Assembly: GCA_035645145.1 (NCBI GenBank)
Contig: DASQNC010000025.1
Span: 62,001-126,000, forward strand
Reading direction: 5' to 3'
DNA from: Azospirillaceae bacterium
GTDB lineage: Bacteria; Pseudomonadota; Alphaproteobacteria; Azospirillales; Azospirillaceae
DNA: 64,000 bases
Of the stretch, positions 5,486 to 16,800 are shown piece by piece (positions within the stretch are counted from its first letter, which is position 1; each line of letters begins with the position of its first letter). A program made the position numbers and the translations under genes. The notes below the pieces were generated by a model, which saw only the letters and a program-made list of their open reading frames with translations, searched no databases and was not told where the DNA came from.

Positions 5486-7297
5486 ATGGATTTAGTCAGT
5501 GACGGAGGGATCGCGGCGCTCGGCGTGTCCCGGTCGGCGACCGGCAAGCGCTGGGTGCTGGGCCGGGTGGACGAGCGCTTGGCGCTCGCCATCGCCCAGA
5601 GCCGCGGCCTTCCCGATCTGGTGGCCCGGGTCCTGGCCGGGCGCGGCATCGGCTTGGACCGGGTTGACGGCTTCCTGAAGCCGCAACTGCGGACCTTCCT
5701 GCCCGATCCCTCGATCTTCCGCGACATGGACCGGGCGGCGGAACGGATCGCCGCCGCCATCCGCAACGGCGAACGCATCGCCGTCTTCGCCGACTACGAC
5801 GTGGACGGCGCCACCTCGGCCGCGCTTCTGCTGCGCTTCTGCCGGGCGGTGGGCGCCGATCCCATCCTCTACATCCCCGACCGCATCGCCGAGGGCTACG
5901 GCCCCAACGCCAAGGCGCTGGAAGGCCTCGCCCAGCGCGGCGTGAAGCTGGTGGTGACGGTCGATTGCGGCATCACCGCCTTCGACGCGCTGGAGGCCGC
6001 CGCCGCTGCGGGGCTGGAGGTGGTGGTCGTGGACCACCACGCCGCCGAAACCCGTCTGCCCACGGCGGTCGCCGTCGTGAATCCGAACCGCCTGGACGAG
6101 GGCGCCGGCGCCGCGCCGTACCGCACGCTCGCCGCGGTGGGCGTCAGTTTCCTGTTGCTGGTGGCGGTGAACCGGGTGCTGCGGGCGGCCGGCTGGTATG
6201 CGAACCGGCCCGAACCCGACCTTTTGTCCTGGCTCGATTTGGTGGCGCTGGGCACCGTCTGCGACGTGGTTCCGCTGACCGGGCTGAACCGTGCGCTGGT
6301 GGTGCAGGGGCTGCGGGTGATGGCGCGCCGGGGCAACCCCGGCATCGCCGCCCTGGCCGATGTGGCGCGGCTGACCGAGCGGCCGGATGCCTACCACGCC
6401 GGCTTCATCCTCGGCCCCCGCGTGAATGCCGGCGGCCGGCTGGGCGGCAGCGAGTTGGGCGCGCGTCTTCTCTCCACCGACGACCCGACCGAGGCCGCGG
6501 CCCTGGCCCGGCAGCTCGACGCCTTCAACACCGAACGCCGCAACGTGGAGGCGGCGGTGCTGGAAGAGGCGCTGGCGCAGGTGGAGGTGCATGTGCCGGG
6601 CACGCCGTTGCTGCTGGCGTCCGGAGCGGGATGGCACCCGGGGGTGATCGGCATCGTCGCCGCCCGCATCAAGGAGCGTTTCGAGCGCCCGGCCGTGGTG
6701 GTGGCGCTGGACAACGGGTTCGGCAAGGCGTCGGGCCGGTCGGTGCGGGCGGTGAACCTGGGCGCCGCGGTGATCGCGGCGCGGCAGGCGGGCCTGCTGG
6801 TCACGGGTGGCGGCCACCACATGGCCTGCGGCTTCACGGTGGCCGAGGACCGTCTGCCGGTGCTGCACCGGTTCCTGGAGGCGCATGTGGCCGACCAGAC
6901 GACGGCGATGGCGCCGGAACCCCTGTTCGAGCTGGACGGGGTGATTTCGGTGGCGGGGGCCACGCCCGGATTCGCCGAAACCCTGGCCACCCTCGGCCCC
7001 TTCGGCGCCGGCAATCCGGAACCGCGATTCGCGGTTTCCGACGCGCGGGTGGTGCGGGCCGACATCGTGGGCGGCAGCCATGTGCGCTGCATCCTGACGG
7101 GGCCGGAGGGCGGCCGCCTGAAGGCCATTGCCTTCCGCGCGGCGCGCGACGGCACGCCGGACGATCTGGGCCAATTGCTGCTGCGCGCGCAGGGCCGGCC
7201 GGTGCATCTGGCCGGCACCTTCCGCATCGACCGCTGGAACGGCAGCGAGACCGTGCAGCTCTGCGTGGACGACGCCGCCCCCGCGTGGCGGACGTGA
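5486..7297 (+). CDS. recJ: Single-stranded-DNA-specific exonuclease RecJ
   Basis: 5'-3' single-strand DNA exonuclease used in recombination repair and mismatch repair. It has 603 residues, typical length. The DHH phosphoesterase motifs are visible: FADYDVDGATS near residue 103, VVVDHHAAE near residue 183 and the DHHA1 glycine-histidine motif GGGHHMACG near residue 440. The last ~130 residues form the OB-fold tail (PEPRFAVSDARVV onward). GGAGGATC precedes the ATG. It ends 73 bases before tRNA-Glu and is the last backbone protein gene before the island. Confidence 0.96.
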   Translation: MDLVSDGGIAALGVSRSATGKRWVLGRVDERLALAIAQSRGLPDLVARVLAGRGIGLDRVDGFLKPQLRTFLPDPSIFRDMDRAAERIAAAIRNGERIAVFADYDVDGATSAALLLRFCRAVGADPILYIPDRIAEGYGPNAKALEGLAQRGVKLVVTVDCGITAFDALEAAAAAGLEVVVVDHHAAETRLPTAVAVVNPNRLDEGAGAAPYRTLAAVGVSFLLLVAVNRVLRAAGWYANRPEPDLLSWLDLVALGTVCDVVPLTGLNRALVVQGLRVMARRGNPGIAALADVARLTERPDAYHAGFILGPRVNAGGRLGGSELGARLLSTDDPTEAAALARQLDAFNTERRNVEAAVLEEALAQVEVHVPGTPLLLASGAGWHPGVIGIVAARIKERFERPAVVVALDNGFGKASGRSVRAVNLGAAVIAARQAGLLVTGGGHHMACGFTVAEDRLPVLHRFLEAHVADQTTAMAPEPLFELDGVISVAGATPGFAETLATLGPFGAGNPEPRFAVSDARVVRADIVGGSHVRCILTGPEGGRLKAIAFRAARDGTPDDLGQLLLRAQGRPVHLAGTFRIDRWNGSETVQLCVDDAAPAWRT

Positions 7298-7370
7298 TCG
7301 GATCGCGCGATTTTGGCTTGCATTCGTCCGCTCGTACGGGTACCTCTCTGCTCACCGCACGGCCTGCTGC

Positions 7371-7446
<76 letters not shown>

Positions 7447-7601
7447 CTTGCGCCTTATTTGGCTGGAGCGTCTGCTTTGGCGGCGCAATACGTTGTCTAC
7501 TGCGACACGCAGGGCTGTGCTCCCACCGTAGTGCGACCAGTTTCCTCCAGCGGCTGAGTGAGGGCTCACAGTTTCCACTCAATCGCGTACCATGGCCCGC
7601 T

Positions 7602-8150
7602 ATGCCATTCTGGGGGGGCATAACTTGGGGGATCACCTTGGCCGCATCCATTCCGTCTAGTAGAGAGCCCAGCCTCTACGATTACAATACGCCCCTGCCA
7701 CCAGAATTCGCCAAGAAAGGGGCTAGGTTAGCAAAAGAGGTTACACGTCGCCAGAGATTGGTTCTGTGGTCGATGGCGGGTGTGACATTGGTGGGTGGAG
7801 TGATTTTGGAGGTATTTGCTGATCAAAGCAAAGATCCTCTGGTTAGGATTGGTGCAATACTTGTTCTTTTAAGTATTGTTCATGCTTCAAAAGTTGTGAA
7901 GTGGTCTAAAATCCGTGAGAACGCTGAGGTTATGTGTATAGATATTTGTACCAAAATTGAGACTGATAAAATAAAAGATGAAGTCCCTCCGGAATATCTT
8001 GAAAAAGAGGCTAAGGCTCGCGCCTTACGTCGAGTTGAGAGGGTTCTGCCAAAACTTTTTTCAGCCATAGAGCGAGAAATTGTGTTGCATCATCTTCTTG
8101 TTGCAGCCGTCGGGAATTTTTTAATGGGTTTTGGTGACTTGCTCGATTAA
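7602..8150 (+). CDS. Small membrane protein of unknown function, AT-rich
   Basis: Not recognised. As drawn it has 182 residues. Two adjacent hydrophobic segments (about 48-68, LVLWSMAGVTLVGGVILEVF, and 74-94, LVRIGAILVLLSIVHASKVV) form a hairpin, followed by a charged Lys/Glu-rich region and a hydrophobic C-terminal end (LLVAAVGNFLMGFGDLL). Base and codon use are clearly more AT-rich than in the flanking backbone genes, which points to transfer. The start is uncertain: a TTG at 7638 after GGGGGATC would give a shorter, more ordinary N-terminus. It is the first gene of the island after tRNA-Glu. Confidence 0.6.
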   Translation: MPFWGGITWGITLAASIPSSREPSLYDYNTPLPPEFAKKGARLAKEVTRRQRLVLWSMAGVTLVGGVILEVFADQSKDPLVRIGAILVLLSIVHASKVVKWSKIRENAEVMCIDICTKIETDKIKDEVPPEYLEKEAKARALRRVERVLPKLFSAIEREIVLHHLLVAAVGNFLMGFGDLLD

Positions 8151-8305
8151 CCTTTAATTATATTTTAATAATGCGCTGACCGCCAATTGAATGAAGACCG
8201 CATTCAAGGGCGGGGGTGCGCTGACATGAATTGAGCGGTGTGCAGTGGCGCCGATCTGCACAGCTGCCACCTGATGCCGCCGTCCGGGGCAGGCGCTGAC
8301 GCCGC

Positions 8306-8387
8306 GCTGGCCTGTTCGACTGCTTGCTGGAACGGCTGCACCTGCGACTGCAAAATCCACTCCGTAGACACCACATCCGTGCCGGCT
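8306..8387 (+). pseudogene. Possible IS5-type transposase fragment
   Basis: A short stretch translating as LFDCLLERLHLRLQNPL in one frame, and reading VDTTSV in another, resembles the region just before and at the first catalytic Asp of IS5-family transposases. It is cut exactly where the IS701-like element begins at 8388-8391. This is too short to be sure of; it may be the older target into which that element jumped. Confidence 0.3.
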
Positions 8388-8390
8388 TAG

Positions 8391-9834
8391 CACTACTTTG
8401 GCATTGAGCTCGCAATGGCCTGCTGGGTTGGCTGTTTGGCCTGCCTGATCGATGCAGGCGGAGGCGGCCATGGCTGGATATGGCGTGCAGGGTTGGGAGC
8501 GTGAACTGACGAACTGGCTGGCGCCCCTCCTGTCGGCCCTGGGGCATCCCGCCCGCCGGCTGTGGGCGCCCTTCTATATCCGCGGGCTGCTCGGACCTGG
8601 CGAGCGCAAGAGCGTACAGCCCATGGCCGAGCGGCTGGGCCTCGGCGGCCACGACCAGCTGCATAACTTCATCGCCAGCGCATCCTGGAACACCAATGCC
8701 CTGGAAGCCGTCCTGGCCGCCAAGGCCGACGCGCTCGTGGGCGGGGCGGGCGCGGTCCTGGTGGTGGACGACACCGCCTTGCCGAAGAAGGGACTGCATT
8801 CGGTCGGTGTGGCGCGCCAGTACGCGGGGGCTCTGGGCAAGAATGCCAACAACTGCCAGACGCTGGTCTCCCTGACCCTGGCGCGTGACGAGGTCCCGAT
8901 CCCCGTGGCCCTGCGCCTGTTCCTGCCCTGGGAATGGGTGGCCAATCCAACCCGCTGCGCCAAGGCCGGTATCCCCGCTGCGCTCTGTGCGCCGAAGGCC
9001 AAGACCGATATCGCTTTGGAGGAGATTGACCGGCTGCGGGCGGCAGGCCTGCGGTTCGGCTGTGTCCTGGCCGATGCGGGCTATGGGATCAGCGCGGGTT
9101 TCCGCCAGGGCCTGGATGCCCGGGAACTGCTCTGGGCGGTCGGCATTCCGCGCATTCAGAAGGTCTACCGCGCAGACGCGGAGATGGTGCGCCCGGCGCC
9201 CCTCAGAGGACGTCCACGCCGCGCCGCCATTCCGGTTGAAGACGCGGTGGCTGCCGAGACGCTGCTCGATGCCGCGCCCTGGCGGATGATCAGCTGGCGC
9301 ATGGGCACCAAGGGGCCATTGGCTGCCGAGTGCACGTGGCCGATGGACCGGCAGTCACCATCCGCGGCAAGGCCAACCGGCACCTGCCTGGGACGGCAGT
9401 TTGGCTGGTGGGGGAGCGCCGGACGTCGGGTGAGCGGAAGTACCACCTGTCCAACCTACCCGAGGACACGGACCTGGAGGCGCTCGCCTGCGCCATCAAG
9501 GCACGCTGGGTGTGCGAGCAAGGGCACCAGCAGATGAAGTGAGGAGCTTGGGCTGGACCACTTCGAGGGCCGGACCTGGTGGGGGCTTCACCACCATGCG
9601 GTGATGGTGATGATCGCCTACGCCTTCCTGCAGCACCCGCGACTTGCCGCATGGGCGAGCGGGGGGGGGGGAACCGGACCCGCCGCTCTGGTCCGCCACC
9701 CCAGCCCACGCTTCCCGCCGTGCGCGCCGCCGTCGCGCGCTTGCTCCACGCATGCCAGCCGCCATGCCTCCAATGCCCCAGGTGCAGAGCATGGATCAAC
9801 GGCTGGCCAGCCACCTGAAACTACCAAAGTAGTG
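8391..9834 (+). mobile_element. IS701-like insertion sequence, decayed
   Basis: A 1,444-bp element bounded by inverted repeats CACTACTTTGG (8391-8401) and CCAAAGTAGTG (9824-9834). The adjoining tetranucleotides are TTAG (8387-8390) and CTAG (9835-9838). Both fit the YTAR target duplication known for the IS701 family but differ by one base, so either one has mutated or the flanks were rearranged. Size, ends and the single DDE transposase fit IS701. The transposase frame is broken three times, so the copy cannot move by itself. Confidence 0.8.
8470..9818 (+). pseudogene. IS701-family transposase, three frameshifts
   Basis: DDE transposase. The first part (to about 9325) reads cleanly and contains the first catalytic Asp region, LVVDDTALPKKG, and the second, CVLADAGYG. 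Near 9325 the frame shifts and continues as VADGPAVTIRGKANRHLPG to QQMK. A second shift with a stop lies at about 9540, after which the conserved [15 protein letters not shown] is read. A third falls in the run of eleven G at 9661-9671, after which the usual tail [18 protein letters not shown] follows to the stop at 9818. The ATG at 8470 gives the family N-terminus. No programmed frameshift signal is apparent. Confidence 0.85.
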
Positions 9835-9986
9835 CTAGTGCGCCTCCGTGTCTATCGGAGCTGTGCCGCGCATTTCGCTTCGGTCAGGATGAGGGGGTGA
9901 TCCGTCGTGCACGCCGGCTCCAGTGGCGGAAGCAATCCTGAACAACTGATTACCCTGAGCCGTTGCAGAATTTCCAATTTAGGCTA

Positions 9987-10928
9987 TCAGGCAGCTTCTT
10001 TGTTGAGGATATGTTCCGCCATCATATGAACGCTTATCATTGGTCGTAGACGAATTCTTGTTCTATCTGCCTGCTCTTCGAGGTCATCCAAAGCTTCCAA
10101 AATGTGTTTCTGCTGTCGCACCGTGACCTGCGGGTCATCAGGTGCAGGATGCTGAACCAGCATCTCGTATTCGGCATGGCGTGGGATGAAATGATCTGCT
10201 TCTTTTTCCCTTTCCACTTTCAGATCCCAAAGTCTTTGCTTAATAGTACCAACCGACCTTGATGCCCCCTTTGCTCGGATCATTCCAAAATTTGCTACAA
10301 GGCGGGTTCCTGAAAAATCTATTTGGACTTCGCTTGCCTTTGTACGTGGAAGCCTCGTTCCCGCCTCACGGATTTTCCGGTCAAAACACTTGTCGAGCCC
10401 TGGGCGACGCTGGGTAACGTAGCGAAAAATAAGAGCATGCAGGCGGTTACCTTCGCCGACAGTAGCGAGTTCGGTCTGATTTTGTTCTGATGCAGGCACA
10501 AAACCGAACCGTTCATCTCCTGACTCTTCGTTGACCAGCGACGATGAGGTAAAAAGCCAAGCTCGCGCAATATCCTGTAGAGATGCGCCGGTGCCTTCGG
10601 TCAAGGGGCCAAAGGTGATGCTAGCGAACGCCGGTCGCGGATCGGTGAGGGCCGCTTCGCCGCGTTGGGTAAGATCATCTATGAGTGCGTCCAATGATGC
10701 TGTAGCCGCGAATTTAACGACGTCAGCCTGCGCCCCATACAAGCAATTGAGCTTCCTAAGCCCATTGGCGCGCTCAACGTGAAACTCGTTGCTGTTCACA
10801 ACAGCAACACCAATAGTCAGACGCTCCCCAGATCCCGGCACCGGCTCAAGGTATACGGGCGCCCACTTCGCGCGCTTGGCTATGCTAGCGCTTGGGAACG
10901 CGGCAGGGTCCAAATCAAGGATGTTCAT
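9987..10928 (-). CDS. Partner protein of HipA-like kinase, unknown function
   Basis: A 313-residue protein whose function I do not recognise. Its ATG at 10928 overlaps the stop of the upstream kinase gene (ATGA, four shared bases), so the two are translationally coupled and probably work together. The N-terminal part (WAPVYLEPVPGSGERLTIGVAVV) recalls the layout of DUF3037 proteins that are often encoded beside HipA-family kinases, but the protein is much longer than that domain; this likeness is by eye only. No helix-turn-helix or membrane segment is obvious. The C-terminal third is charged and helical (KQRLWDLKVEREKEADHF). GC content is lower than in the backbone. Confidence 0.65.
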   Translation of the reverse strand: MNILDLDPAAFPSASIAKRAKWAPVYLEPVPGSGERLTIGVAVVNSNEFHVERANGLRKLNCLYGAQADVVKFAATASLDALIDDLTQRGEAALTDPRPAFASITFGPLTEGTGASLQDIARAWLFTSSSLVNEESGDERFGFVPASEQNQTELATVGEGNRLHALIFRYVTQRRPGLDKCFDRKIREAGTRLPRTKASEVQIDFSGTRLVANFGMIRAKGASRSVGTIKQRLWDLKVEREKEADHFIPRHAEYEMLVQHPAPDDPQVTVRQQKHILEALDDLEEQADRTRIRLRPMISVHMMAEHILNKEAA

Positions 10929-11749
10929 GGTACCAGCCTTGGCAAGCCGATAGCTGACGTGGCCAAGAGCGGAACATGCTGACACCGATCCTTTAGGAAT
11001 TGCAAGAGACTTACTAAGTCTCCTGCCGACAGCAGATTGATGACCCGGTTCGCTCTTGCTGTTTCATCGAGATCAACTCCAGCCGATCGAGTCGGGAAAG
11101 TGGATGCCTCCCTAACGAGATGAGCTCGTTGAGACGGGGCCAGGCGGGGCGTAAGCCACTCTGTAAGGCGATTCTGATACACTCCATCGGCTCGGAGTGA
11201 GTTTGCGACCCAAGCCTCGCCTGTGAAACACCGGCCATGATCAATAAGCCAAACAGCGTTGTTACCGTCGAAAAGAAGGTTATTCATGTGACGGTCTGTG
11301 TTCGCCACCCACGTGTCGAACAAAAATGCCTCACTGAGCTTCGCCCATCCGGTAAGCCTATCCAAGATCAAGTCCCAGCCTGCCCCTGCTTGGGTGCAGA
11401 TCTGTGCGACTGGCGGAGTGCCCTGAAGCTCGCTCGCGAAAAACACACGCGCCCCATTCGAAAGCAATGGTGCCTTATATCCCGGCAGGACCGTTGAGCT
11501 AGCGACTGCCAAGAAGGGGCGCGGAACGGGAAGACCTAGGCTTAAGGCTAATGCCGCAGCCAATACCTCGTTCGCCAACTCCTTTTGCGGAAGATCCTTT
11601 ATGATTGCTTTCGATGGACGCCCGACACCAGTCTCAATTAATCCGATGAAAGTGTTGTTGATATTATTGTTCTTGAACGGCGCTGCGCCGGGCTGGACCT
11701 CCGCCAGCCCGACGGCAGGAACCGTCTGTACGATTTGATGACCTGACAT
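10925..11749 (-). CDS. HipA-like serine/threonine kinase
   Basis: Kinase-fold protein of 274 residues related to HipA. Visible elements: a candidate ATP-binding Lys in SKAIIKDLPQKELANEV, the conserved GLPVPRPF stretch, the catalytic loop DTWVANTDRHMNNLLF (Asp, Arg and Asn in the expected places) and the metal-binding LIDHG motif. Canonical HipA toxins have a HipB repressor beside them; none is seen here, and the coupled downstream gene is of another kind. The start at 11749 follows AGAGGGG closely; an in-frame ATG at 11788 would add 13 residues. Likely roles (inferred): toxin-antitoxin or defence module carried by the island. Confidence 0.75.
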   Translation of the reverse strand: MSGHQIVQTVPAVGLAEVQPGAAPFKNNNINNTFIGLIETGVGRPSKAIIKDLPQKELANEVLAAALALSLGLPVPRPFLAVASSTVLPGYKAPLLSNGARVFFASELQGTPPVAQICTQAGAGWDLILDRLTGWAKLSEAFLFDTWVANTDRHMNNLLFDGNNAVWLIDHGRCFTGEAWVANSLRADGVYQNRLTEWLTPRLAPSQRAHLVREASTFPTRSAGVDLDETARANRVINLLSAGDLVSLLQFLKDRCQHVPLLATSAIGLPRLVP

Positions 11750-12008
11750 AACCCCTCTTTTGAGCGCTCGCAAAACGTATGAGGCCAATCACCATCGGGT
11801 CACGACCATAGGGCGAAAATGGAAAAATTACCACCCTTAGTCGTCGTGTTGCCCATTTGGTGGAGCTAGCAACTCAGGTCAGCACACGCCTCGTTGAGAG
11901 GCGACCGGGAGTGTCGCCCTAATCAAACCTTCTAGCTCCTCTGTGGCGCCCCAGTCACATCGGTAACTCCGCCAAGTTTGCCGACGAACGGGAGGCCAGA
12001 GGGTCGCC

Positions 12009-12441
12009 ATGCGGCGGCACGAACTAAGCCCCGGGCCGTGGGCGTTGATCTCCGACCTGATGCCGCCCGCACTGCTCCGCGGCGGCGGGCGCTGGCGCGA
12101 CCACCGCCAAGTGGTCAACGGGCTGTTCTGGAAACTGGTGACCAGCGCGCAGTGACGCGACACCCCGAGCGCTACGGCCCTTGGCAGATCGCCGCTGTGC
12201 TGAGCCTGGGCCAGCGCCATGAGGTACCAGTGTTTGCGGCCCTGATGGACGGGGGGGCTGGCATTGGCGCCGTCATTCCGCAGCGCCCCGGTCCCTGGGT
12301 GGGCCCGCCGCGGGATAGCTCAAGGGGTGCCTGTTCATCGCCACCCGGCGCAGCAAGCTCGCCCGCAGCTTCCTGGCCGTGCCCAAGCTCGCTTTCGTCT
12401 GCCAATACCTTCGGACCCTCAGACCGCCAGATGGGGCCTAA
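12009..12441 (+). pseudogene. IS5-family transposase remnant, internally deleted
   Basis: The N-terminal part reads ELSPGPWALISDLMPP, then RWRDHRQVVNGLFWKL, the usual IS5-type opening domain. It then meets a stop (TGA, about 12152) and a frameshift before ERYGPWQIA. Most of the catalytic core is missing, and the C-terminal end resumes at about 12329 as LFIATRRSKLARSFLAVPKL to the stop at 12439-12441. At about 430 bp it is roughly half the length of an intact gene. No clear terminal repeats are left. Confidence 0.8.
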
Positions 12442-12650
12442 GAGCCCTTATTTACTTGCGTCCAATTTGTGCGTCAGTATATTTACTTGGCAAGGTGGGT
12501 TTCGTTGCCACAGATAGTGTTGTTAGGGTTTGCGTGAAGTGATGGGAGGTGTCCTTTTTGTGAGGAGATGATCGTGTAAATATTAATCCCGATCGGTCGA
12601 TCGGTGTGAAATTTGTAAGGGCAGTAGCCATTTAATATCGGTGTGCACAA

Positions 12651-13517
12651 ATGAAAACAGTGATAAAGATTGAAATGCATAAGTCGTTCGCAATTAGTGT
12701 TGCCTGGATTGAGCGCTTGGATGGCATTTTTCATGATGCTGTGCAGCGGAGCATTGCTCTGAGAATGTCGGAAGTAGAGGATTTTAAGAATGATGAGGTG
12801 AAAAAAATTATCGAGCAAGATGATGATAACAGGAGGAGGGTGTTAAGGCGATTTGTTGATGAGAGGGTGTCTGAAAAGGAAGATGATATAAGGAGGACTG
12901 ATGGCTATTACATTTCTGCTGTGTGCTCTGATGGAACATCAATAAGAGACGCTTCCTTTGATGAGATTAGAAAAGCTAATTTCGGTAGCAGGATAATCAC
13001 AAAATTTTCTGCGAATAGCTCACATTCATCCAAAATACGGATTGATATAGACTTAACTCGGAGGGGGATGGGTCCGGTCATGGAGGCTGAGATTTCCGGT
13101 GATGACGGGTATATTTTTTATGTTGAGCGCCAAATAAGAGATTTATTCGATGAAGCTAAAGTGTGGTGGTGGCTCGCCGGTCGCGTAAGCCCATTGTACT
13201 TTGCATTTTATATGTATGCATTTGACATAGTTGTATTTTCCGCGGCTGCCGTCTTTATAGCAGCTAATGGAATAACGGAAGATGTGCAAAAAAATTTTGC
13301 ATCTATATTTTCATTGATGTTAATGGCGCCTATATTTGGAAGTGCATTATACTGGATAGTATGCAAAATCATGTTTCCTCAAGCATCTTTTATAATTGGT
13401 AAGGGCGAAAGGCGGTTCATGTTCTACAAGAACATAAGGGCAGTTGTGGGTGTTGCTGTCATATTGTCGTTTATCGTTGGCCTGGTTGTTAATTATGTCT
13501 CAGGGTTATTATTTTGA
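12651..13517 (+). CDS. AT-rich membrane protein, unknown function
   Basis: Not recognised; 288 residues. The first ~180 residues are soluble and highly charged, with a likely coiled segment (KNDEVKKIIEQDDDNRRRVL). They are followed by three hydrophobic segments at about 183-212, 220-246 and 262-288 that should anchor the protein in the inner membrane with the soluble part in the cytoplasm. Base use is strongly AT-rich compared with neighbours, as for the gene at 7602, so it was probably acquired. No good ribosome site precedes the ATG. A charged cytoplasmic region on a C-terminal membrane anchor is a plan seen in some defence effectors, but nothing specific supports that here. Confidence 0.65.
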   Translation: MKTVIKIEMHKSFAISVAWIERLDGIFHDAVQRSIALRMSEVEDFKNDEVKKIIEQDDDNRRRVLRRFVDERVSEKEDDIRRTDGYYISAVCSDGTSIRDASFDEIRKANFGSRIITKFSANSSHSSKIRIDIDLTRRGMGPVMEAEISGDDGYIFYVERQIRDLFDEAKVWWWLAGRVSPLYFAFYMYAFDIVVFSAAAVFIAANGITEDVQKNFASIFSLMLMAPIFGSALYWIVCKIMFPQASFIIGKGERRFMFYKNIRAVVGVAVILSFIVGLVVNYVSGLLF

Positions 13518-13887
13518 CTTTTATCGACGGTTAAATGCGCTGGTGCAAAAATTTAGGCACCGGTCGTTAATGGGTTGTGTAATGCGTTTGCTATAGGAGC
13601 TGCGTGACAGGATCTTCGCATATGCATACGAAGGTTAATTCGGCATGCGGACTGTTGATTATGCCGCCGATCAAAAAATGAGTCTCTGGTTGTGAGAAAT
13701 CCTGCTTATCTTGTTAAGTGGCAGGAAAACCTATCGGTTTGCGGCATCGGACCATTATTTCTGTTAATTATGTAACTCGGGTTGTCATGAATAATTTGGG
13801 AGGCAAACTAAGCTGTAGGAGGCGGTGAAGGTGGGAAAACCATTTCAAAGAGTCTAGGGGTGACGCTGTCTGAATTTCTGCTCTCGC
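13518..13887. other. Non-coding AT-rich right edge of the island
   Basis: About 370 bases between the AT-rich membrane protein and the RND permease. I see no gene, no tRNA fragment and no clear terminator. Composition changes from AT-rich to GC-rich at about 13850, which marks the boundary of the acquired segment. Confidence 0.5.
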
Positions 13888-16800
13888 CTACCGCCGCTCC
13901 CTCGTCACCAACCGGAAGAACAACGGCACAAACAGTACGGCCAGGAACGTTGCCGCCAGCATCCCACCGATCACCCCAGTCCCCACCGCATGGCGGCTGG
14001 CCGAGCCGGCGCCGGTGGAGATCGCCAGCGGCACGGTGCCCAGGATAAAGGCCAGCGACGTCATGACGATGGGGCGGAAGCGCAGCTTGGCCGCTTCCAC
14101 CGCCGCGTTGTGGACGGACAGGCCCTCGCGGTGGCGTTGGGCCGCCACCTCGACGATCAGGATGGCGTTCTTGGCGGCAAGGCCGATCAGTGTGACCAGC
14201 CCAACCTGGAAGTAGATGTCGTTCTCGATCCCGCGCAGGTGGATGGCCAGGATGGCGCCGAACACCGCGAACGGAACCGCGGTGATCACCGCCAGCGGCA
14301 GCGACCAGCGCTCGTATTGCGCCGCCAGGATCAGGAACACCATCAGCAGGCCGAACAGGAACCCTTGGGTCCCCGTCCCGGCGGTCTGAAGTTCCTGGTA
14401 TGCCGATCCCGTCCACCCGATCGCGTAGTCCGACGACAGCGTTTGCGCCACGACCTGCTGCATCGCCGCGATGGCCTGGCCGGACGAAATGCCCGGCGCC
14501 GGGTTGCCCTGGATCTTGGCGGCAGGGAAAACGTTGAACCGGTCCACCACGTCCGGCCCGACGATGCGGGTTGCCGTCACCAGCGTGTTCAGCGGCACCA
14601 TGGCGTTGTTCGCCGACCGCACGAACACGTGCCGCAGATCGTTCGGCGCCTCGCGGAATTCGGCCTCCGACGACAGGCTGACGCGGTAGGTCCGCCCGAA
14701 CAGGCTGAAGTCGTTGACGTACAGACTGCCGAACGTGCTCTGCATCGTGTCGAAGATCGACACGATGGGCACGCCCAGCGCCTTCGCCTTGTCGCGGTCC
14801 ACGTCCAGCCGGTATTGCGGCACCCCGGTGTTGAAGGTGGTCGAAACACCCTGAAGCTCCGGCCGCTGGTTTGCGGCCTGGATCACCCGCTGCGCCGCCT
14901 GCGCCAGGCTTTCCAGGCTGCCGCCGGACCGGTCCTGAAGGAAGAATTCGAACCCGCCCGTGGTGCTCATCCCCTGGATGGGCGGCGGGTTGAACCCGAT
15001 CGCCACGCCGTCGCGGAAGCCGGCGTTCAGTGCGGCAAAGCTCGGCGCCAGATTGCGCGCGTCCTGCCGCGGGTCCGTCCGCTCCGACCAGTCCTTCAAC
15101 GAAACGAACGAGATCCCGGCGTTCGTCTTCTGCGCGCCCGACAACAGGTCGAACCCCGCCAGCGTGGTCACGTCCGCCACGGCGGGATTGCGCATCAGCC
15201 CCTGTGTCACCGCCCCGGTGATGTCGCGCGTGCGGTCGAGCGAGGCGGCCGGCGGCAGGGCCGCCACCACGAAGACGACGCCCAGATCCTCCGCCGGCAC
15301 CAGACCGCCCGGCACCCGCTGGAACAGCCACCACGTCGCGCCCAGCATCACGCCGACCAGCACCAGGGCGACCACCGCATGGCGCAGGAAAAAGGACGCG
15401 CCCGCGGCAAACCCCTGGGTCACCCGCGCGAACCCGCGGTTGAACAGGCGGAACGGCAGCCAGGGCCGCCCCTGCCCGGACGGCGCATCTCCCGATTGCC
15501 CATCCCCCGAATGCCCACGCCCCGGCTTCAGCAGCACCGCGCACAGGGCCGGGGTCAGGGTCAGCGCCACGATGCCGGAAATCACCACCGACACGGCGAT
15601 GGTCACCGCGAACTGCCGGTACAGCTCGCCGGCCAGACCGCCCAGGAACGACACCGGCACGAACACGGCGCACAGCACCAGGACCACGGCGATCACCGGA
15701 CCGCTGACCTCGTCCATGGCCTGGATCGCGGCCTCGCGCGGGGGCTTGCCCTGCGTGGTCATGATGCGTTCGACGTTCTCCAGCACGATGATGGCGTCGT
15801 CCACCACGATGCCGATGGCCAGGATCAGGCCGAACAGCGTCAGCAGGTTGATCGAGAAACCCAGCAGGTGCATGCCCGCGAAGGCGCCGATGATCGACAC
15901 CGGCACGGCCAGAATGGGGATGACCGTCGCCCGCCAGTTCTGCAGGAACACGAAGACGACCAGCACCACCAGCGCGATCGCCTCGGCAAAGGTCACCACC
16001 ACCTCGTGGATCGAGGCCTCGATGAAGCGGGTGGTGTTGAACGGCACGTCGTAACGCAAACCGTCCGGGAACCGCTGGGCGAGGCGGTCCATGGTGGCCT
16101 TGACCGCCCCCGAAACCTCCAGCGCGTTGGCGCCGGGTTGCAGATAGAGGCCGATCGGCACCATCGGCGCGCCGTTCAGGGTCGCCGTGGTGGCGTAGTT
16201 CAGCGACCCCAGCTCGACGCGGGCGACATCCCGCAGGCGCAGCGCGGCCCCGTTGGCATCCGAACGCAGGATGATCTGTTCGAACTCGCGCGGATCGGCG
16301 AACCGGCCCCGCGTGGTGGCGGAGTAGGTGAAGGCCTGCCGGCCCGGCATCGGCTCTTCCGAAAACCGGCCGGCGGCGAACTGGGCGTTCTGCTCGCGGA
16401 TCGCGGCGGCGATGTCGCTCGGGGTCAGGTGGTATTCCGCGACCTTGTCGGGCCGCAGCCAGATGCGCATCGAATAGTCCGACGCGCCGAACAGGGACGC
16501 GTCGCCCACCCCCGGCGTGCGCCGCAGCTCGTCGATGACGTTCACCAGCGCATAGTTCGAGATGAAGACCGTGTCGTACCGCTGGCCGGGCGACGACATG
16601 GCCACGATCTGCAGGATCGAGGTGGACCGCTTGGCGACCGTCACGCCCTGGCGGCGGACCTCCTCCGGCAAAAGGGCCGTCGCGCGCTGCACCCGGTTGT
16701 TGACGTTGATGGTCGCCTGGTCGGGATCGGTGCCGGTCTGGAAATAGACCGACAGGTTCACGGCGCCCGACGCGGTCGAGGTCGATTGCATGTAGATCAT

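Follow-up and report, generated by a model that had tools for sequence, protein, structure and literature searches.

In HipBA, hipB precedes hipA. Two-gene systems of the HipAD type are recent and appear in papers from 2025-2026, and the original HipAD paper was reportedly published in Cell Host Microbe in 2025. In the retron-Sda1 locus, neighboring genes for a HipA-like protein and a DUF3037 protein were identified as PDC-M66; the consulted part of that report states that the PDC-M66 operon needs neither the retron RT nor the ncRNA to block Bas51, that deletion of the kinase gene in this locus causes a loss of defence, and that deletion of the DUF3037 gene is toxic (PMC12548924). The E. coli system DS-6 was renamed HipAD, and according to the sections available of a second report, a catalytic mutant of DS-6A loses defence, DS-6B carries DUF1829, and the AlphaFold3 complex of HipAD has an ipTM of 0.76-0.79 (PMC13092281).

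The 64,000-nucleotide stretch of Azospirillaceae DNA analyzed here (referred to as the window) contains a gene for a HipA_2-type kinase followed by a partner gene. Based on homology and gene arrangement, this pair is, with a probability of roughly 75%, a divergent member of the HipAD, DS-6, and PDC-M66 kind of two-gene anti-phage modules. Like HipAD/DS-6, which was compared by its description, the pair combines a HipA-type kinase with a non-HipB partner that has a DUF3037-like part, and kinase activity was needed for defence in that system, as far as the consulted part of the report goes (PMC13092281). It differs in that Pfam does not detect the window partner and that a comparison of the C-terminal half with 5 DUF1829 proteins showed no link in sequence. 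With PDC-M66 it shares the two-gene organization and a kinase that matches PDC-M66A (E 3e-8), whereas the window partner has no PDC-M66B match and a retron RT gene was not noticed nearby. The first-pass annotation of this DNA had spoken of a little-described type, which is right only in part. Systems of this kind have in fact been described and tested in the 2025-2026 papers; new here are a divergent branch that annotation has overlooked, a natural fusion of kinase and partner, and, in the C-terminal half of the partner, a modelled PD-(D/E)XK-like fold that lacks an evident catalytic motif.

Gene pair and probable translational coupling

Both open reading frames of the pair were found where the first-pass annotation had placed them, on the minus strand and with 274 and 313 codons for amino acids. 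The features discussed below are as follows.

7371..7446, plus strand: tRNA-Glu (ttc), left border of the lower-GC stretch
9987..10928, minus strand: partner gene, 313 aa, proposed neutraliser and sensor, adjoins the kinase in homologous loci
9990..10460, minus strand: C-terminal domain of the partner (residues 157-313), PD-(D/E)XK-like in the model, no evident catalytic motif
10524..10928, minus strand: partner N-terminal domain, approximately residues 1-135, DUF3037-like, invariant E35 in a GSGER motif
10925..10928, minus strand: ATGA in which the kinase stop and the partner start overlap, read from the sequence
10925..11749, minus strand: kinase gene, HipA_2-type, 274 aa, proposed toxin/effector, with K51, D152/R153/N157, and D170

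The kinase stop overlaps the partner start, as had been claimed, with the TGA lying inside the partner's ATGA (ACCATGAACATCC), an arrangement that is likely to couple the translation of the two genes. Other starts exist upstream, namely, a TTG at 11788 for the kinase and a GTG at 10985 for the partner; the ATG starts are preferred for both genes because they fit the overlap. The purine-rich sequence AAGAGGGG is located 2 nt upstream of the kinase ATG, a spacing that is close for a ribosome site, and a promoter scan gave 0 hits versus 1.6 expected. Kinase and partner frames overlap in 56 of the 64 homologous loci measured, a count that is biased towards overlap because the partner starts were picked nearest to the kinase stop.

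A HipA-type kinase core

The kinase passes the Pfam HipA_2 cut-off (E 4.8e-11, 42.8 bits versus 27) and falls below that of HipA_C (E 0.22, 11.6 bits versus 30.5), and its best PADLOC match is PDC-M66A. The Asp/Arg/Asn catalytic loop recognized in the first-pass annotation, D152-R153-x3-N157, is conserved across 59 aligned kinases (D152 in 58, R153 in 59, N157 in 58). The DHG metal motif reported alongside it is present as D170-H171-G172, and its first two positions are kept (59/59 and 58/59, respectively), but the glycine is found in only 25/59. Further conserved positions are K51 (56/59), E61 (59/59), and D145 (59/59).

A sequence search against solved structures gave no match for the kinase. 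Its AF2 model is confident (pLDDT 93.1, pTM 0.91), and VIA-align matched it to CtkA with a Z of 16.5 (229 aligned, rmsd 4.3), PI4K II beta (14.7), CotH (13.4), HipA (13.1; 202 aligned, rmsd 3.6), and HipT (12.7 and 11.9). As modelled, the kinase is a member of the HipA/PI4K kinase superfamily without much of the N-terminal part of HipA. The module resembles HipBA in this HipA-type catalytic core and in having a neighbor that may neutralise the kinase. It differs from HipBA in the size of the kinase, whose 274 aa begin to align with HipA chains only at about residue 65-148, in its HipA_C match of only E 0.22, and in its partner, which is a non-HTH protein with a DUF3037-like N-terminal half that follows the kinase. 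With HipBST and HipS-HipT it has in common a small HipA-type kinase core, whereas the window module consists of two genes and has a DUF3037-like partner. The adjoining gene has no HTH Pfam match, which, for this neighbor, agrees with the earlier remark that no HipB repressor is present.

The partner is related to DUF3037 proteins

The partner had been described as a protein with no recognised domain and a faint likeness to DUF3037. Searches against Pfam and NCBIfam indeed gave zero family matches each, and the likeness was upheld by profile comparison with hhalign. The window partner family matched DUF3037 proteins (A6) with 96.2% (E 2.7e-9) and matched end-to-end a bridging group (A5) of ORFs found downstream of homologous kinases (99.3%, E 3.3e-20), which in turn matched A6 with 98.1%. 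The N-terminal halves of partner and DUF3037 proteins gave 94.7% (E 5.7e-8) and the C-terminal halves 59.5% (E 9e-5), while three unrelated control comparisons gave 0.1-0.4%. On the strength of these profiles, the partner is homologous to DUF3037 proteins through its N-terminal half. This half contains an EPxxGSGER motif, of which E35 is found in 65/65 alignment rows and P29 and S33 in 64/65 each.

The Pfam DUF3037 model was matched by 4 of 77 aligned partners (E 0.01), the window partner not being among them, so that annotation misses most of the partner branch. Four named loci with a DUF3037 match (L123, L128, L149, and L160) fall outside the window's own branch, A4. The DUF3037 profile A6 matched the window partner at E 5e-4, a value computed on a small ORF set. 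The PADLOC model PDC-M66B was matched by 3/77 aligned partners and not by that of the window. A JetB identity of the partner (PADLOC E 0.002) was dropped, since only 1/77 members gave this match. A link of the C-terminal half to DUF1829 was expected because DS-6B is said to carry this domain, but the hhalign comparison, made with only 5 DUF1829 proteins, gave 0.3%. Because the partner family is wider than the DUF3037 annotation suggests, the number of such systems in phages, prophages, and plasmids is probably underestimated.

A modelled PD-(D/E)XK-like fold in the C-terminal half of the partner

A structure prediction of the partner, proposed in the first-pass annotation, was obtained with AF2 (pLDDT 89.0, pTM 0.63; residues 137-154 below pLDDT 50), and the C-terminal half of the model is PD-(D/E)XK-like. 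Foldseek found nothing at E <0.001 in the PDB. Among the Foldseek candidates, VIA-align placed the central domain of ERCC1 (2a1i) at the top with a Z of 9.6 (rmsd 3.0, 110 aligned, residues 158-313), followed by Can2 (9.0), CdiA-CT (8.8), XPF (8.7), and PspGI (7.9). Many more members of the PD-(D/E)XK superfamily are among the 50 matches listed, as is the unrelated CENP-M at Z 7.8. Since models without a clear match typically reach a best VIA-align Z of 7-8, the evidence that the C-terminal half has a PD-(D/E)XK core fold, as judged from the model, is good but not overwhelming. These matches bear on the C-terminal half, and the N-terminal domain was barely tested by them. The partner profile had a best E of 0.34 in a sequence search against solved structures. 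In the viral library, two unnamed proteins matched at E 1.6e-18 and 1.4e-7.

A PD-(D/E)XK-like domain would also be compatible with a partner that serves as a nuclease effector and is activated by the kinase, a reading that we regard as extremely unlikely, as no conserved set of acids and lysine is evident in the core strands across the 65-row alignment. None of columns 200-218 is acidic in more than 24/65 rows; column 204 is acidic in 23/65, column 211 in 0/65, and column 213 is Lys/Arg in 2/65, these being counts by alignment column only. The best match, ERCC1, is a catalytically dead member of the superfamily and likewise argues against an effector. Instead, we infer that the C-terminal half of the partner may represent a dead nuclease fold.

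Kinase and partner occur together

The window partner sequence by itself found zero relatives in a viral scan, and a profile of four rows (A1) was needed, which retrieved 52 viral and 16 genome loci; because the sets contain near-identical prophages, these 68 loci correspond to 57 distinct entries, one of them empty. A kinase-profile ORF adjoins the partner in 52/52 viral and 15/16 genome loci; the sole exception is on a Pseudomonas serbica plasmid, where the partner is cut. From the kinase side, the partner profile was found directly downstream, or fused in the same ORF in L086, in 74 of 80 viral loci among the matches listed; 23 of these 80 are also in the partner set, and the count favours paired relatives because each of the five kinases behind the search pattern has a neighbor of this type (a related one in the case of Cupriavidus). 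The six remaining loci comprise two contig ends (L113 and L148), two with an unmatched ORF (L146 and L165), and two with a true DUF3037 protein beside the kinase (L149, E 1.2e-7; L160, E 2.1e-7; these and the other E-values of neighboring ORFs were computed on small ORF sets).

Two further samples were drawn, which are not independent since their genomes overlap and their kinase model contains the window kinase and those of the DUF3037 pairs L149 and L160. DUF3037, sampled irrespective of the kinase, occurred in 17 places (1/190 genomes of the class and 16/299 of the phylum), and a kinase-profile ORF lay upstream in 17/17; for L179 no downstream ORF was located, and for L175 and L177 the wrong one was picked, but the kinase matches stand. 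HipA_2 was present in 16/200 genomes, the window included, and in 14 of these 16 a DUF3037-profile ORF adjoins it, the weakest being the window's own at E 5e-4. The two genomes without a DUF3037-type neighbor are G632 and G622, and in the latter an ORF of 295 aa overlaps the end of the kinase. The partner model, built with the window partner, matches only the window among the 16.

Seen from both sides, the pairing of kinase and partner is nearly obligate. The first-pass annotation had named kinase homologues occurring mostly without the partner as evidence against its reading; the opposite was observed, both in the listed viral loci (74/80) and in the HipA_2 genomes (14/16). Moreover, kinase and partner distances correlate across 66 pairs with an r of 0.79, where none of 1000 permutations exceeded 0.17, which shows shared inheritance; kinase and partner have the same nearest neighbor in 49/66. 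These pairs came from the window, from G037, and from 64 of the 76 representative loci; the remaining loci were excluded, 10 of them as distant and 2 because of misplaced starts. A natural fusion also exists as one ORF of up to 584 aa on a viral contig (L082:4092-5843), and the same protein is found in Plasticicumulans acidivorans (L019), which is perhaps the same organism.

Some copies are incomplete. Partners are cut or split in L060, L069, L073, L079, L083, and L096. The kinase match lies in a short ORF in L026, L060, and L076 (81-103 aa), where the kinase may thus be broken, and also in L148. In G466 (L203 and L214), a HipA_2 kinase is split across two ORFs beside a DUF3037-type protein. 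In the G037 genome, one contig carries the pair three times (L002, L003, L004, and L005) with equal kinase scores; the third copy has a broken partner frame and an intact kinase.

Genomic setting and distribution

The location on a tRNA island, as proposed initially, holds in part. The tRNA-Glu gene borders a stretch of lower GC content (0.553 for 7450-13900 versus 0.721 before and 0.677 after), but neither a repeat of the tRNA end nor, in the 4 ORFs scanned with Pfam, an integrase was found. The stretch is not uniform, as its IS region (8500-9999) has a GC content of 0.65-0.70. The IS itself, at 8388-9837, encodes a DDE_5 transposase, the frame of which seems to be interrupted near 9330-9540, and is bounded by perfect inverted repeats of 14 bp. 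The pair lies between the tRNA-Glu and genes read by eye as an RND pump. Two other island ORFs, at 7602-8150 (182 aa) and 12651-13517 (288 aa), contain hydrophobic segments as judged by eye and match neither Pfam nor PADLOC, so that PADLOC recognised no defence gene in them. The same-genus genome G052 has a stretch that resembles, with 76%, the end of the window's recJ gene (named by eye) and the tRNA; a comparison that took in its ORF list and its pump homologues gave no clear empty site.

Relatives close to the window are rare. Within the family, the partner is present in 2/82 genomes, the window's own included, and a class-wide search with the partner profile found it in 1/385 genomes, namely, the window's own. 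The nearest relatives are G037 and a Rhodospirillaceae locus (L070), both at 42%. Homologues occur on phages, prophages, and plasmids, with the 52 viral loci and 4 plasmid records carrying the partner. Near the pair in L071, the region 6824-8935 encodes a type I-like methyltransferase that includes a specificity part.

This distribution, and the position of the window copy in a lower-GC stretch with an IS, would also suit a toxin-antitoxin (addiction) module that serves to retain a mobile element without direct phage defence in this host, as would the toxicity of the DUF3037 deletion that the consulted part of one report describes for a relative (PMC12548924). This reading is considered unlikely, since two relatives defend E. 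coli against phage, as far as the sections consulted state (PMC12548924, PMC13092281). The two roles are compatible with each other. 

Near-identical copies of one viral-contig pair are present in 4 of 5426 E. coli genomes, and in the one inspected, ECCRA-119, the pair is located directly after a LexA-family (CI-like) repressor gene in an apparent lambdoid prophage. A gene with an HTH domain is also found directly upstream of the kinase on a Marinobacter plasmid and directly upstream of the two-gene block, with a candidate kinase, in Alteromonas phage P24. Such neighbors could point to a kinase with a regulator for phage-phage competition or lysogeny control, in which the partner would be an activator or substrate and not an antitoxin. 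We judge this to be very unlikely: the toxic DUF3037 deletion in the retron-Sda1 locus, described in the part of the report consulted, fits an antitoxin (PMC12548924), and a Pfam scan of 4 ORFs from the stretch recognised no repressor beside the window copy.

Proposed mode of action

The reading of the pair as a toxin-antitoxin or anti-phage module, proposed in the first-pass annotation, gains support from its homology to the tested HipAD, DS-6, and PDC-M66 systems and from the near-obligate pairing, although its function in this organism is argued by analogy. The kept catalytic residues, the pairing, the correlated divergence, the homology to DUF3037, the fusion, and the occurrence on mobile elements all speak for a HipAD-like module. 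Against it count the lack of a Pfam DUF3037 match and of a DUF1829 link, the rarity near the window, the absence of a recognised defence gene from the two other island ORFs, and the short kinase ORFs of L026, L060, and L076.

In such a module, the kinase would be a growth-arresting toxin that phosphorylates a host or phage target. The partner, translated just after the kinase by coupling, would bind and silence it, and phage infection might upset the kinase-partner complex, so that the kinase is freed and the infected cell is stopped. That the kinase is needed for defence and that the DUF3037 protein prevents toxicity is taken from the results of others on relatives, as given in the parts of those reports that were consulted.

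A more specific version, which we consider doubtful, is that the partner is a two-part guard, with the DUF3037-like part as a clamp on the kinase and the dead nuclease fold as a sensor of phage nucleic acid or nuclease that releases the kinase when engaged. The natural fusion and the modelled dead-nuclease fold offer starting points for learning how the kinase is held by the partner and what the partner senses. On two Pseudomonas plasmids (L013 and L083), an N-terminal half of the partner was found with no kinase match beside it. These orphan halves are possible antitoxin mimics or products of decay; if the partner were a two-part guard, they would be antitoxin mimics that switch the system off.
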